In this document: piece after piece, positions 1,057-38,779 of the stretch
How the letters are laid out: every line of letters starts with the position of its first letter
Numbering within the stretch: the first letter of the stretch is position 1
Origin: a virus
Strand: one strand, 5' to 3'
Virus record (IMG/VR): IMGVR_UViG_3300020474_000008
Span: 1 to 64,000 of that record
DNA: 64,000 bases
The notes under the pieces: model-generated
The model's input: only the letters and a program-made list of their open reading frames with translations
The model's database searches: none
Told to the model about the DNA's origin: nothing
Translations under genes and position numbers: made by a program

Positions 1057-1064
1057 TATAAATA
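1057..1064 (+). promoter_or_regulatory. T4-type late promoter TATAAATA
   Basis: A perfect TATAAATA octamer on the plus strand, 26 bp before the ATG at 1091. It is the only plus-strand promoter I can recognise in the window and serves the only plus-strand operon. Confidence 0.75.
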
Positions 1065-1090
1065 CACGCACGGTCCCTCCTCAAAAAAAA

Positions 1091-1588
1091 ATGAAAAGGT
1101 TCATTCCTTTAATTATGCTTTTGATGGCAGCTCCTACGGCAGCAAATGCTGGTGGTCTGGTTCATAAAATGTCTTCTAGTGTTCAACTTACAGTTGATGC
1201 TGCTAGATCAACCGCAACAAGATTGGGAAGTCAATACTCTGTATCAGGTTCCAATGTCAACACGACAGATGGAACAACAGCAAATACTATTTCTACTGGT
1301 GCAATCACTAGTGGAATCATGGCGCCTGGTACAATCTCTGCTACACAAGCAACAGCAGGAGAAGCATTCTCTTTCTCTACTTCATACATTCAAGGCGATG
1401 CTGTAAGCACTAGTGCTCCTACTGTGGGGACTGTTGGTAACTTTTCCAGTCAGACTTCTTACACAGCAGGAACTGCCTCTACACTGGCAGGTACTATTGC
1501 CACTGATGGTGGTATTGCCATCACAGCTGGTGGAGCTGGCACTACTGCTGTGGGTCAATTTGTTAGCGAAATCACTGTGATTGATTAA
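1091..1588 (+). CDS. Exported protein, first of plus-strand late operon
   Basis: A 165-aa protein with a clear signal peptide (MKRFIPLIMLLMAAPTAANA, cleavage after ANA). The mature part is rich in Gly, Ala, Ser and Thr and almost free of charge, as in beta-rich surface or fibre proteins. It holds YSVSGSNV (about residues 50-57) and AFSFSTSYIQGD (about 93-104). Related motifs YSVSGTNV and AFQFTQSYMGPG occur in the next gene, so the two appear to be distant paralogues. It overlaps the next gene by 8 bp. Late expression suggests a virion-associated or envelope-directed role. Function unknown. Confidence 0.8.
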   Translation: MKRFIPLIMLLMAAPTAANAGGLVHKMSSSVQLTVDAARSTATRLGSQYSVSGSNVNTTDGTTANTISTGAITSGIMAPGTISATQATAGEAFSFSTSYIQGDAVSTSAPTVGTVGNFSSQTSYTAGTASTLAGTIATDGGIAITAGGAGTTAVGQFVSEITVID

Positions 1589-2057
1589 TATGAGGTTACA
1601 AGAAGCAATCAGTCTTGGGTTGTTTCTTGGTGTTGTTCATGGTTTGGGACAAGCTGCATACTCAGTGCCAGTAGTCCCAAACTTTACTCAGGGCTCCATG
1701 ACTAGCCACACTGAAACGACCTCCAAGCAAACTGAGACAATTAATTCAATAGACTATGCAACAGGATGGCAATATTCAGTATCAGGAACAAATGTTTCCG
1801 CAGATGGAAATTCACTTCTTCCACCAAGTGTAACAAACAGTGTGAATGTGAACCCACTAGGTGGGATAGAGGGGCAGGTTCAAAGTTCAACAGTTGGTTT
1901 GGACTTCAGGAACTCCAACTTCACAGTGACAGACCCAACAAAGGCTTTTCAATTCACTCAGAGTTACATGGGTCCAGGGGTGACAAATCAAACTGTAATC
2001 CAAAGAACAACAGAAGTAACAAGCGTAACAGATACTACAAGTATCTTTACGCAATAG
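1581..2057 (+). CDS. Exported protein, paralogue of upstream gene
   Basis: A 158-aa protein with a signal-like N-terminus (LGLFLGVVHGLGQAAYS), followed by a Thr/Ser/Asn-rich, low-charge body. YSVSGTNV and AFQFTQSYMGPG match motifs in the preceding protein in the same order. The start overlaps the end of the upstream gene by 8 bp, so translation is probably coupled. Both would be made late and exported. Family function is not known to me. Confidence 0.75.
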   Translation: MINMRLQEAISLGLFLGVVHGLGQAAYSVPVVPNFTQGSMTSHTETTSKQTETINSIDYATGWQYSVSGTNVSADGNSLLPPSVTNSVNVNPLGGIEGQVQSSTVGLDFRNSNFTVTDPTKAFQFTQSYMGPGVTNQTVIQRTTEVTSVTDTTSIFTQ

Positions 2058-3037
2058 CAGCACTTACATTTGCTTCACCAGTTCATGCTGCTGATGTTGG
2101 TGGTGTGTCTGCCACAGCATCGCCAATCGCAAACAGTTCAGGCTCTGTGACCAACCAAGCCATCCAGGTTTTACAAGGTCCATACATTACCAATACTTAT
2201 GGAGGAGGTATCAGTTGTCAGGGACCTACTGCTAACTTCACTCCTTACATCACTCATGCAAGAAATGATAAGGATCCATTTGAGACCATGTATATGGAAC
2301 CTCAATATGATAATAGAGACTTTGAAGGGAGAATGGTAGAGGTTACCAAGAATGTCAAGAACTGGCCTTGGGAGACTTGGTATGATGATAGAACATATAC
2401 CAATGCAGAAGGTGAGACTGTAAGAGCATACGAAGATGGTCAGGATATGACTATCACTATCATGGAAATGCAAGGGGATGGTGTTCCTGATGATCCAGGT
2501 AGACAACTCTGGCAGAAACCAGTAAGAACTGGTAACACAAGAAATTTCAGCACCAGTATTGGTCTCTCTGCAACACTGTCTCTACCACTTGATGGTGGAC
2601 TACAAGAACGTTGTAAGCAGGCAGCAGATACTCAGATTGCATTGCAGGGTCAAATGCTTGCTAACAAGAGGTTAGACTTTGAACTTGCGAGACTTAAAAA
2701 TTGTGGTGAATTATTGCAGAAAGGAATTCGTTTTCATCCCAGAAGTCCATATGCAAAAGTGTGTGCTGATGTGGTTGTGAATAATGTGACTGTGATTCCA
2801 CAACACATTCACTCCATACCCTCTACTTCTTCAATGGGCGAACAGAGCGCAGTGCCTTCACAGCCTGATTCCTCTGCCTCTGCTCAGCAACCCTCTCAGA
2901 AGAGGACTGTGGCGGGATCTTCTTACCCCGTAAGGCAGCAACCTTCTTCATTACCTTCTTCACAGTCGGTTTCACCACTTTTAACAGAAGATCAGCAAGA
3001 GGTTTTGCAAGCAGTGCCGAGGACGTTGCCACAATAG
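2018..3037 (+). CDS. Exported protein with unresolved start, third of plus-strand operon
   Basis: The frame is open from 1766, but the part before about 2018 overlaps the previous gene and looks non-coding. A signal peptide is plain at about 2021-2080 (basic KRNRYYK, hydrophobic YAIAALTFA, cleavage after VHA). The mature part starts ADVGGVSATASPIANSSGS and contains ITNTYGGGISCQGPTANF. A conserved-looking block, LANKRLDFELARLKNCGELL, is followed by a Ser/Pro/Gln-rich tail. No ATG, GTG or TTG is found in frame near the signal peptide. Possible explanations are a rare start codon, a -1 frameshift from the previous gene, or a lost start. The 3' end overlaps the opposing gene by 215 bp. Confidence 0.7.
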   Translation, partial: NKRNRYYKYLYAIAALTFASPVHAADVGGVSATASPIANSSGSVTNQAIQVLQGPYITNTYGGGISCQGPTANFTPYITHARNDKDPFETMYMEPQYDNRDFEGRMVEVTKNVKNWPWETWYDDRTYTNAEGETVRAYEDGQDMTITIMEMQGDGVPDDPGRQLWQKPVRTGNTRNFSTSIGLSATLSLPLDGGLQERCKQAADTQIALQGQMLANKRLDFELARLKNCGELLQKGIRFHPRSPYAKVCADVVVNNVTVIPQHIHSIPSTSSMGEQSAVPSQPDSSASAQQPSQKRTVAGSSYPVRQQPSSLPSSQSVSPLLTEDQQEVLQAVPRTLPQ

Positions 3038-3620
3038 CAATAGATGCAGTGGTAGTAACCATACCTGCTGATGGTATATTCTGAACTATCTGATCAGGTA
3101 TTGATAACTTCTCCATTACAGGTAGACATTCCTTACCTACCATCTCATAATTAACAATCTTCTGATTACCCTCTAGGATCTTTCCTATGGGGTTTTTTAA
3201 TTGCTGTTCTCTCGTAGGACAGGAAGGCATAGGTGCCTCTGTCTTGGGGATTGCAGGGGTTGATGGTGCCTTGGGTGGCTCAGGTTTTTCTGGTGGTCTT
3301 ACAGGGGGTGGTGGAGGTGCCTCCTGTTGTATATTTAATTTGTTGGTGTCATATTGAAGAGGATTATAACTTGGTGTGCCAGCATCACATAGAGTGACTG
3401 TGCCCTTATCATCTTGATTTTTTAAGTTTGTATTCTGACTACTATCTTTATGCGCAGTTACACAACCAGGGATGTTTACAATTGGTGTCCCTAGTTGTTG
3501 TGTTACAGGTGGGTAGACTGGCAATGCCATAGGTGGATCTGTTGTCAACCACCTAGGCATTTCAGGTATTCTGATATCACCAATCCTTAGATTGTTTATC
3601 CTAATTTCAGGAATTGGCAT
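2823..3620 (-). CDS. Proline-rich membrane-associated protein
   Basis: About 265 aa starting at the ATG at 3620, which shares its A with the TAA of the upstream gene. The N-terminal half is rich in Pro and Ile (PEIRINNLRIGDIRIPEMPRW), with a polyproline run (EAPPPPPVRPPEKPEPPKAP) near the middle. A hydrophobic segment near residues 190-210 (TTTASIAIVATSSALLAKPL) precedes a very basic C-terminus. The layout suggests a membrane protein with an extended linker. Its last 215 bp are antisense to the end of the plus-strand operon. Function unknown. Confidence 0.75.
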   Translation of the reverse strand: MPIPEIRINNLRIGDIRIPEMPRWLTTDPPMALPVYPPVTQQLGTPIVNIPGCVTAHKDSSQNTNLKNQDDKGTVTLCDAGTPSYNPLQYDTNKLNIQQEAPPPPPVRPPEKPEPPKAPSTPAIPKTEAPMPSCPTREQQLKNPIGKILEGNQKIVNYEMVGKECLPVMEKLSIPDQIVQNIPSAGMVTTTASIAIVATSSALLAKPLADLLLKVVKPTVKKVMKKVAALRGKKIPPQSSSERVAEQRQRNQAVKALRSVRPLKK

Positions 3621-4198
3621 TAACAATCACTGATCATAGAGTTCACAGTTGACCCTGCTGCCTCTCCAAGGTTCTGTCCTAGGAGTAATGCCCAACCACC
3701 TGCTAACCATCCAACATAAGGAATACTTGCAACTGCTGGCACTGCTAAACCAGCAGCAAGACTAGTCCCTGCCATTGCACCTTGTGATCGTGCGCCAGCG
3801 TCCGCCACTAAACACTCCGCGTCTTTTGCACTTAACTTTCCCTCGTTATCTGTTGCAACACCTCCAATATTTCTAGTTCCTTCTCTTGTATATTGATCAG
3901 TCCTGTACTCAGAACGAATCTCTGATCCACCACCAAAGATTCCTCTCTTCTCTTTTTCAAGATCAAGACTTCTACTTGAACTTAAAACTTTGGGGTCATC
4001 AGAACGATATTCAATCTCATATCCATCCTTACCTGCTTTGATTCTGTAAGAAGAATATGGACCTTTTGGGATATTAATAGTAGGCACTGGTGCTACTTTC
4101 TCTACTGGTTTCCTGAGAACATATCCCAATAAACCAATGTGTGCTACACCAACAATACCAAGCACACCTATTAAACTATACTTTACTACTTTGTTCAT
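3620..4198 (-). CDS. Membrane protein with glycine-rich C-terminal segment
   Basis: A 192-aa protein. An N-terminal membrane segment (YSLIGVLGIVGVAHIGLLGYV) is followed by a charged middle with tyrosine-rich repeats. The C-terminal hydrophobic Gly/Ala region (AMAGTSLAAGLAVPAVASIP, then GWLAGGWALLLGQNL) could insert in a membrane. Translation is coupled by a 4-bp ATGA overlap to the upstream gene. The three genes 2823-4464 form one set of membrane-linked unknowns. Confidence 0.75.
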   Translation of the reverse strand: MNKVVKYSLIGVLGIVGVAHIGLLGYVLRKPVEKVAPVPTINIPKGPYSSYRIKAGKDGYEIEYRSDDPKVLSSSRSLDLEKEKRGIFGGGSEIRSEYRTDQYTREGTRNIGGVATDNEGKLSAKDAECLVADAGARSQGAMAGTSLAAGLAVPAVASIPYVGWLAGGWALLLGQNLGEAAGSTVNSMISDC

Positions 4199-4464
4199 CT
4201 ACCTAAGGGGATTGCTGGACCTGTTACTCCTACTGCTCCACCTAGTCCACTTACACCCCCAGTAGACGAAGGAAATTCAGGCATTGCTGAATCAACAATA
4301 CCTGGAAGAGCTTTGCTAACTCCCTCTGTGGCAGATTTGATAATCTCTGTCTTAATTCCTTCTGTTATTGATTCTCTCATCACATAAACATAACCAGTTG
4401 CTCCTACAATTGTAAGAGATACTAGACCTGAAAAAATTGAAATCACATTCACAATTTTCTGCAT
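4195..4464 (-). CDS. Small membrane protein
   Basis: An 89-aa protein with one N-terminal membrane helix (IFSGLVSLTIVGATGYVYVM), an amphipathic middle (TEGIKTEIIKSATEGVSKAL) and a glycine-rich tail (SSTGGVSGLGGAVGVTGPAI). Overlaps the next gene by ATGA. Function unknown. Confidence 0.7.
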   Translation of the reverse strand: MQKIVNVISIFSGLVSLTIVGATGYVYVMRESITEGIKTEIIKSATEGVSKALPGIVDSAMPEFPSSTGGVSGLGGAVGVTGPAIPLGR

Positions 4465-7215: not shown

Positions 7216-8576
7216 TCTGGGAAATCCCATTTGGTGATGGTGTTTACTTTGTGTTCTGGACCCCAACCTTCCAAATAGATGTATGGTGTGGTTCTTATGG
7301 GACAATGTTCACCAACACATAACAAATCATCAACAATCCTCCAAGATTCTAACACTTCTTCAGCATGAACGAAGTGTGATTGGTCACCATTCATGGCATC
7401 ATAGAAAAGTTTTTCATATCCATCCACAGCACCTTTTGGATAAGGATGAGTCAGGGTTGCTGTCTCTACCTTATCATTCAACCCAGGAGATTTGATATCA
7501 ATACGAATATCAAGATGAGGGTTAGGTTGCAGACGCATAACAATACGGTCATTGAATTCATGTCCTGGAAATAGATTGAGTGGTGGTTCTTTGAGTTTGA
7601 TGACTACCTCTGTACAAGAGTAAGGCATCTTCTTACCAGTCATGAAGTTAAAAGGAACCCCCTTCCAACGCCAGTTATTGACGTGAAGAGAACCAGCAAC
7701 GTAGGTAGGAGTGTTACTGAAAGGATCAACGCCCTCTTCATTACGATAACCATCGTATTGTCCACAAATCAGGTCCTCCCCTAAACTAGTTGCTGCTAAT
7801 ACTTTAACTTTTTCTCTTCTAATTTCTGTTGCATCATTCCTGCAAGGTGCTTCCATAGCAATCAATGACAAAATTTGGAGCATATGATTCTGTAACATAT
7901 CTCTCACAGCACCAGCAGTGTCATAGTATTGTGACCTTCCCTCACAACCAATGGTTTCAGTGGCAAAGATTTGGACTTCCTCTATATAATTCCTATTCCA
8001 AAGGGGCTCCAAAAGAGTGTTACTAAACCTAGTAGTAAGTATATTATTAACAGTATCTTTGCCAAGATAATGATCAATGCGATATACTTGTTTCTCGCGT
8101 AGACATCCGCTAACCACTGACTGTAAATGATTAGCAGATTGAAGATCCACCCCAAAAGGTTTCTCAATAACGACTCTTGTTTTTTCTGGGTCATTTAGTA
8201 ATCCTGCTGCTTTAAGGTTTACTATGGCATCAGCATATCTGTCTGGTGGTACAGACAAAAAGAATGTCATGTCATCTGTGACAGGTATTGATCTAAGGGT
8301 ATCAACATCACTTAAATCACATTGATGATAGTCCATCTTTAATGACAGACCAGCCTCATAATATGCATCAAGACTTTCCAACCAGGATTGTCTTGTATGT
8401 TCTCTTCTTGCTGCTCCAATAATCTTATAATTTTCAGGAAGCAAATTCTTTTGATACAGTTTATTCAGTGCAGGAATTAGTTTCCTTCTGCACAGGTCAC
8501 CAGTTGCCCCAAAGATGACAAGGGTTTTAGTGGGCTGTTCCATTTCCATCATACTTATCCGACTCGTAGTAGACAT
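7212..8576 (-). CDS. zwf: Glucose-6-phosphate 1-dehydrogenase
   Basis: About 454 aa. The Rossmann motif GATGDLCRRKLIPALNKLYQ opens the enzyme, and the catalytic signature RIDHYLGKD is present, with KPFGVD before it. Catalyses NADP-dependent oxidation of glucose-6-phosphate to 6-phosphogluconolactone, the first step of the oxidative pentose phosphate pathway, giving NADPH. With gnd upstream it can supply NADPH and ribulose-5-phosphate for dNTP synthesis. The start is uncertain: ATG at 8576 follows AAGGTGA, while ATGs at 8552, 8549 and 8543 are also possible. It overlaps a 42-aa gene by about 50 bp. Confidence 0.95.
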   Translation of the reverse strand: MSTTSRISMMEMEQPTKTLVIFGATGDLCRRKLIPALNKLYQKNLLPENYKIIGAARREHTRQSWLESLDAYYEAGLSLKMDYHQCDLSDVDTLRSIPVTDDMTFFLSVPPDRYADAIVNLKAAGLLNDPEKTRVVIEKPFGVDLQSANHLQSVVSGCLREKQVYRIDHYLGKDTVNNILTTRFSNTLLEPLWNRNYIEEVQIFATETIGCEGRSQYYDTAGAVRDMLQNHMLQILSLIAMEAPCRNDATEIRREKVKVLAATSLGEDLICGQYDGYRNEEGVDPFSNTPTYVAGSLHVNNWRWKGVPFNFMTGKKMPYSCTEVVIKLKEPPLNLFPGHEFNDRIVMRLQPNPHLDIRIDIKSPGLNDKVETATLTHPYPKGAVDGYEKLFYDAMNGDQSHFVHAEEVLESWRIVDDLLCVGEHCPIRTTPYIYLEGWGPEHKVNTITKWDFPE

Positions 8577-38406: not shown

Positions 38407-38779
38407 TTGTAATCCTTTGAAGTTCCCTTAAACAATTATCATCAATAGGCAAATCATGAATATATGTCCTTGGTGACTCAGACAATCTATTCAAGAATAC
38501 AATAAATGTTTTAACAATATCCCAATAATCTTTTTCAATCTTATAAAACAACATTGGTGTAGTTGCTTCACCAAACAAGTTATAAAGAATGATGAAATGA
38601 TTTATTAACAAATGAGATCTTAAATCCCCATTGTTACGATACCTTTTAAGTAATCTCTTGATGTACTTAAAGTGGTTGAGGTCTTTATCAAAATCCTCTC
38701 TTGTAACAGCATGGGGATTTTCATAATGTTTAATCGCAAAGATGAGAAAATTTTTCTCATTCAACTCAGTAAATCTCAT
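38396..38779 (-). CDS. Conserved-type helical protein
   Basis: A 127-aa mostly alpha-helical protein (LRSHLLINHFIILYNLFGEA, FVIVFLNRLSESPR-like C-terminal half). No enzyme motif. Found next to virion-type genes in this arrangement. Function unknown. Confidence 0.75.
   Translation of the reverse strand: MRFTELNEKNFLIFAIKHYENPHAVTREDFDKDLNHFKYIKRLLKRYRNNGDLRSHLLINHFIILYNLFGEATTPMLFYKIEKDYWDIVKTFIVFLNRLSESPRTYIHDLPIDDNCLRELQRITNAN

Follow-up and report, generated by a model that had tools for sequence, protein, structure and literature searches.

A late operon of exported proteins in cyanophages, with one gene starting inside its neighbour and a candidate role at the host envelope

Our analysis of a 64-kb window (out of a 69.6-kb virus record) establishes three predicted genes, ORF1, ORF2 and ORF3, as a late operon, and places the predicted translation start of ORF3 at an ATG (position 1766) that is part of a tryptophan codon of ORF2 (a GTG in phage P-SSP7). 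The predicted gene structure of this overlap is held with high confidence. The operon appears to belong to a conserved late cyanophage module with the host envelope as its target, most likely aiding lysis or egress, a reading that we favour while rating it slightly short of probable. DNA of the operon stretch is ~77% identical to that of the Synechococcus phages S-SM2 and Bellamy. The principal features are:

1057-1064, plus strand: exact T4-type late promoter TATAAATA, the sole exact plus-strand copy in the window
1091..1588, plus strand: ORF1 (T4-GC 237; phrog_564, E 4.5e-72), 165 aa, signal peptide, predicted to be exported and beta-rich
1590..2057, plus strand: ORF2 (T4-GC 236; phrog_650; DUF6322, PF19847, E 3.2e-35), 155 aa, predicted to be exported, paralogue of ORF1
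1755..1769, plus strand: start context TAT GCA ACA GGA TGG (Tyr59-Trp63 of ORF2), yielding ATGG for ORF3
1766..3037, plus strand: ORF3 (T4-GC 235; phrog_848), 423 codons, starting in the -1 frame at an ATG within ORF2 (from stop depletion, synonymous conservation and gene-pair layout)
1766..2057, plus strand: double-coding overlap of ORF2 and the ORF3 leader, 97 codons
2027..2089, plus strand: putative signal-peptide core of ORF3 (basic n-region, h-region, A-x-A)
2090..3034, plus strand: predicted mature part of ORF3, with a beta-rich part, a long helix, four invariant Cys and a Ser/Pro/Gln tail (from alignment and a low-confidence model)
2823..3620, minus strand: T4-GC 234 (phrog_570, E 2.3e-106), with four Cys, a Pro-rich stretch, a C-terminal hydrophobic segment and a basic tail (hydropathy)
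3620..4198, minus strand: T4-GC 219 (phrog_605), with an N-terminal transmembrane (TM) segment and a glycine-rich C-terminal part
4195..4464, minus strand: T4-GC 414 (phrog_568, called 'plasmid stability'), small, with a single TM segment
10394..10717, minus strand: T4-GC 218 (DUF6450; PF20048, E 2.3e-32), a small two-TM protein

The late operon and the start of ORF3

A start codon follows 26 nt downstream of TATAAATA, and NATAAATA is found upstream of ORF1 at -19 to -36 in 23 of 61 relatives (background, 0.6% of random 70-nt stretches); late expression of the operon from this predicted promoter is well supported. The first-pass annotation had described a plus-strand operon at 1057-3037 headed by a perfect late promoter, and this description is confirmed; its further statement that no other plus-strand operon exists in the 64 kb holds for multi-gene units, but a crude tally of the window also gives five other plus-strand ORFs (84-103 aa), each isolated. 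On the minus strand, a small phrog_484 protein with CxxC-like motifs (714-998) lies between psbA and the operon, and a PhotoRC-II cis-regulatory RNA (380-476; Rfam RF01717, 73.6 bits) lies directly upstream of psbA.

The same annotation had called the first two proteins paralogous. Their profiles match (hhalign probability 97.3%, E 2.6e-11, 99 columns), and they can therefore be regarded as paralogues, as proposed; the blocks YSxSGxNV and AFxF are kept in the same order in both, and the single-sequence BLAST match is weak (E 0.003). ORF2 scores 121.1 bits against DUF6322 (PF19847), above the curated cut-off of 30.6, and ORF1 falls below it (13.8 vs 30.6 bits). DUF6322 and DUF6450 (PF20048) are both families without an assigned function.

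Neither the window nor any of six annotated relatives has an ATG, GTG or TTG just before the ORF3 signal segment, and the same lack of a nearby start is seen across ~70 further loci, except for two with visibly broken frames. Instead, in most cyanomyoviruses the ORF3 frame runs open over 98 to 110 codons, back to an in-frame ATG. A non-AUG start near the signal core was considered and dropped, the frame being open back to the conserved ATG and not beyond.

Synonymous codon shuffling of the ORF2 overlap in 25 divergent phages, over codon ranges chosen from the observed open lengths, gave 0 observed stops in the -1 frame against 103 expected, and 215 against 186 in the +1 frame. A controlled repeat with fixed ranges in 20 divergent phages gave 3 stops against 88.9 expected in the -1 frame of the overlap, an effect far larger than the caveat that the representatives, though divergent, are not fully independent; the corresponding values were 37 against 31.6 for ORF2 ahead of the ATG and 226 against 234.5 for ORF1. 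Depletion in the overlap but in neither control indicates that the ATG is where the open frame begins, and that an open -1 frame is not typical of these genes as a whole. The three residual stops seem to come from one lineage, in which the overlap has just 55 codons.

Within ORF2, synonymous sites are best conserved over codons 59-62 (Tyr 1.00, Thr 0.94, Gly 0.98), immediately 5' of the Trp codon, whose TGG forms ATGG with the preceding A. GGA encodes the Gly in all 69 sequences and ACA the Thr in 68 of 69; over all ORF2 Gly and Thr codons these account for 54% and 48%. In other lineages the start sits at another Trp codon, and the distance to the ORF2 stop is 21 to 69 codons; in P-SSP7 the codon before Trp is CCG, so that ORF3 starts with GTG. 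The Tyr59 codon (1755-1757), eleven bases ahead of the ORF3 start, is always TAT and never TAC, perhaps a sign of weak structure or of Shine-Dalgarno-independent ribosome binding.

The layout itself is conserved: in 102 of 103 distinct gene pairs, ORF3 occupies the -1 frame and stays open across the ORF2 stop. The exception, MED4-184, has an ORF3 frame broken beside a poly-T run (locus L088, ~7963-7975), possibly through a homopolymer sequencing error; the frame is intact in its near relative MED4-117 (L095). In ACG-2014e (KJ019094; locus L004, 3760-4781), ORF3 is divided between two reading frames and seems partly duplicated, through either disruption of the copy or faulty assembly.

This layout is also what would be expected if ORF3 had no start codon of its own and were made by programmed -1 frameshifting as an ORF2-ORF3 fusion, an early idea that was dropped once the frame was found to be open to the conserved ATG and not beyond. 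We regard it as very improbable: stop depletion extends back to the ATG with none before it, synonymous sites are most strongly conserved around the ATG, no conserved slippery heptamer was seen by eye at the end of the overlap, and the charge selection described below fits a signal-peptide n-region rather than an internal linker. Independent initiation at the Trp-codon ATG also bears on existing annotations, since the annotated starts of P-SSP7 gp45, Bellamy gp256 and Syn1_179 miss the signal peptide and are corrected here; P-SSP7 gp45, annotated from 38783, likely starts at GTG 38627-38629 (locus L113), inside gp44.

Export signals and predicted structure

ORF1 and ORF2 have N-terminal signal peptides of the classical type, and their predicted export is well supported. 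The earlier description of three signal-peptide proteins is correct for these two; ORF3, however, has no signal peptide at its beginning, and its A-x-A segment is internal (around residues 92-108). The leader places ~88 codons ahead of the signal-peptide core. Of 66 sequences, 65 have Ala at position -1 of the A-x-A and 64 have A, V, T or S at position -3; the hydrophobic core is weak (Kyte-Doolittle hydropathy, KD, 1.26) and resembles the ORF1 and ORF2 signal peptides, compared with ~2.0-2.15 for the TM segments of neighbouring proteins.

Over the last 20 ORF3-frame codons before the ORF2 stop, mean net charge is 4.74 against 0.58 expected from shuffles, and acidic residues are depleted (0.63 vs 2.04); the preceding 75 leader codons show no charge selection (8.63 vs 7.97 in shuffles). 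We conclude that most of the leader is just kept open, and that signal-peptide behaviour is confined to its final ~20 codons plus the hydrophobic stretch. Export of ORF3 through an internal signal-peptide core behind a long out-of-frame leader is a supported prediction, and the leader would presumably be cleaved. In S-H38 and DSL-LC02 the leader is of ordinary signal-peptide length; the long form may therefore have arisen by extension into ORF2.

The four Cys of mature ORF3 (43, 175, 205 and 225) are invariant in alignments across myo-, podo- and siphoviruses, which suggests disulfides formed outside the cytoplasm. Structure prediction, which the first-pass annotation had proposed for all three proteins, gave poor AlphaFold models for ORF2 and ORF3 (pLDDT 61 and 55); the ORF3 model (pLDDT 55) contains, at low confidence, a beta-rich part and a long helix (mature residues 169-210). 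Foldseek searches against the PDB returned no significant match (pore-forming proteins and phage tails were among the non-significant ones). Sequence-search matches in the PDB to designed WRAP-T proteins and antibodies were set aside as doubtful repeat matches.

At its other end, ORF3 overlaps the minus-strand T4-GC 234 gene tail to tail over 215 nt (2823-3037). This overlap, which falls in the Ser/Pro/Gln-rich tail of ORF3, is kept in most relatives, though its length differs: it measures ~230 nt in both S-SM2 and S-RIM12 and ~100 nt in Syn1, and S-SM1 has none. The 5' and 3' overlaps together make ~40% of ORF3 codons double-coding.

Members and distribution of the module

Together with a 'plasmid stability' protein, T4-GCs 218, 219, 234, 235 and 237 form a mobile hypothetical cluster of cyanomyoviruses that is absent only from S-PM2 among 16 genomes and whose function is not known (PMC3037559); a functional reason for the grouping was hypothesised (Sullivan et al. 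2010; PMC3037559). The window has the orthologues arranged as in the published cluster, and the 'plasmid stability' protein is close by: GC237-236-235 on the plus strand, GC234-219-414 on the minus strand, and GC218/DUF6450 at 10.5 kb. To the work of Sullivan et al. (2010) the present analysis adds the predicted start of ORF3 within ORF2, the interpretation in terms of signal peptides, and the finding that cyanopodoviruses and cyanosiphoviruses also have the core.

Limitation of the module to cyanomyoviruses is contradicted by this wider distribution. The core (DUF6450, ORF2, ORF3 and a T4-GC234-like gene) is found in the podoviruses P-SSP7 (gp42-45), S-SBP1, SS120-1, S-RIP2 and P-SSP10, where it lies between tail-fibre/tail genes and the terminase, and the same genes are clustered in the siphoviruses MED4-117 and MED4-184. 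GC234 has relatives in siphoviruses; its podovirus matches are weak (E ~1e-5 to 1e-3, with none in SS120-1), and its membership of the module there is tentative. In cyanomyoviruses the location varies, the module lying beside psbA and auxiliary genes in several and beside hsp20 and replication genes in S-RIM12 and S-SM1.

DUF6450 is present in 17 of 17 tested phages having the ORF2/ORF3 pair; ORF2, ORF3 and DUF6450 are all absent, at the set cut-offs, from S-PM2, S-SZBM1 and S-CREM2. ORF1 has relatives in 411 phage records, and ORF3 in 462 phage records and 14 genome-collection contigs. The four contigs checked among these 14 (L103, L104, L110 and L111) also carry neighbouring phage module genes and are probably phage DNA. 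One of them (L104), a 188-kb contig of cyanomyovirus size in the assembly of the flavobacterial isolate Nonlabens xiamenensis 1Q3, holds the complete module and is probably phage contamination. ORF2 was found on no plasmid.

Candidate functions at the host envelope

No homology of ORF1-3 to a protein of known function was found, in agreement with the first-pass annotation, and the literature searched contained no study on the function of these genes. Comparison with known lysis regions offers a guide. In T7, the holin 17.5 and the spanins 18.5/18.7 (with a -1 overlap) lie between the tail fibre and the large terminase, the same interval as that occupied by the cyanopodovirus module, and both regions combine a small two-TM protein with a -1-overlapping pair of envelope-targeted products. 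However, no sequence relation to T7 and no lipoprotein was found, the module overlap is partial whereas that of T7 is a complete nesting, and the ORF2 and ORF3 products, unlike the T7 spanins, look cleaved, soluble and exported. The module resembles lambda Rz/Rz1 in its out-of-frame overlapping genes, envelope targeting and late expression, but the defining pair of a TM anchor and a lipoprotein was not found in it.

Alignments of ORF1, ORF2 and ORF3 have no Cys after the signal peptide; a lipobox is therefore absent, and with it an o-spanin. ORF3 combines a weak hydrophobic segment (KD 1.26) bearing an A-x-A with a long helix predicted at low confidence, and since the segment is weak and looks cleavable, ORF3 is not a clear i-spanin. 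ORF2 and ORF3 do overlap in different frames, as spanin genes do, and no spanin family occurs among the Pfam and PHROG matches of ORF1-3. On the evidence, the module does not appear to be a member of the spanin family; our best guess is that it may be spanin-like in logic. The DUF6450 protein (two TM regions annotated in P-SSP7 gp43; one segment of 2.01 by hydropathy in the window copy) matches DUF6450 alone in Pfam, PHROGs of no assigned function, and no holin family, and T4-GC 218 appears holin-like by size and topology only. Across the module, Pfam and PHROG gave no sequence match to holin, spanin or endolysin families.

The first-pass annotation had suggested envelope remodelling, a surface fibre or a released factor. 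Envelope remodelling is still a live reading, whereas specific evidence for a fibre or a released factor was not found; lysis or egress is a more specific candidate that synteny adds. A late envelope or lysis module is favoured because the two-TM protein and the -1-overlapping envelope pair parallel the T7 interval, and podovirus synteny with that interval, DUF6450 co-occurrence, siphovirus clustering and the late promoter all point the same way; against a lysis role, the cyanomyovirus module is not adjacent to an endolysin, and three cyanomyoviruses (S-PM2, S-SZBM1 and S-CREM2) live without it. We accordingly put forward an envelope/lysis function only tentatively, as somewhat less than probable.

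Other roles can be imagined for such proteins. Once exported, ORF1-3 might alter the surface of the infected cell, for example by blocking superinfection or masking receptors before lysis; the late promoter, the export signals and the lack of recognised cellular homologues would suit this, yet superinfection-exclusion genes are usually early and the podovirus synteny with the T7 lysis position would be left unexplained, and we consider it unlikely. Less likely again is that ORF1-3 are virion-associated (neck, tail or fibre decorations), assembled after passage through the periplasm or with uncleaved hydrophobic N-termini. Tail-fibre genes do adjoin the module in podoviruses, and the sequences appear beta-rich and fibre-like at low confidence, but Sec signals and conserved cysteines clash with cytoplasmic virion assembly, and the cluster was entered as hypothetical proteins by Sullivan et al. 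(2010; PMC3037559). GenBank 'hypothetical' labels in S-SM1 are no proof of absence from the virion, because the detected T4-GC15 is labelled hypothetical too, and the virion proteomes of S-SZBM1 and S-CREM2 are uninformative because both phages are without the module genes. That psbA and other auxiliary genes adjoin the module in several cyanomyoviruses could point to an auxiliary system for nutrients or photosynthesis, acting by binding or stabilisation in the periplasm, instead of lysis or defence; this seems improbable, given the hsp20 and replication-gene locations in S-RIM12 and S-SM1, the occurrence in podo- and siphoviruses next to tail, terminase or other genes, and the lack of a recognised cyanobacterial homologue.

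Under the favoured envelope and lysis reading, ORF1, ORF2 and ORF3 would be exported by Sec, signal peptidase would remove their leaders, and the ORF3 disulfides would form in the periplasm. They might further work with the two-TM DUF6450 protein and with the proline-rich, C-terminally hydrophobic T4-GC234 protein, a step that is weaker than the others; DUF6450 would then serve as the holin, and disrupting or bridging the outer layers, the task of spanins in other systems, would fall to the exported proteins. A more ambitious version, possible but rather doubtful, is a lysis or outer-envelope disruption system common to three cyanophage morphotypes and showing no sequence relationship to known holins and spanins, in which making ORF3 from inside ORF2 via a long, removable, out-of-frame leader would couple synthesis of the envelope partners.

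An out-of-frame overlap of ~100 codons devoted mainly to a leader makes an unusual and statistically strong case of overlapping genes. Marine carbon turnover is driven by lysis, and few lysis genes seem to be recognised in cyanophages; the authors of S-SZBM1 annotated one. Genes of the module are present in more than 400 sequenced cyanophage records, yet no function has been assigned to them. If the module is a lysis or egress system, the question of how cyanophages lyse their hosts would become directly testable with an existing genetic system.
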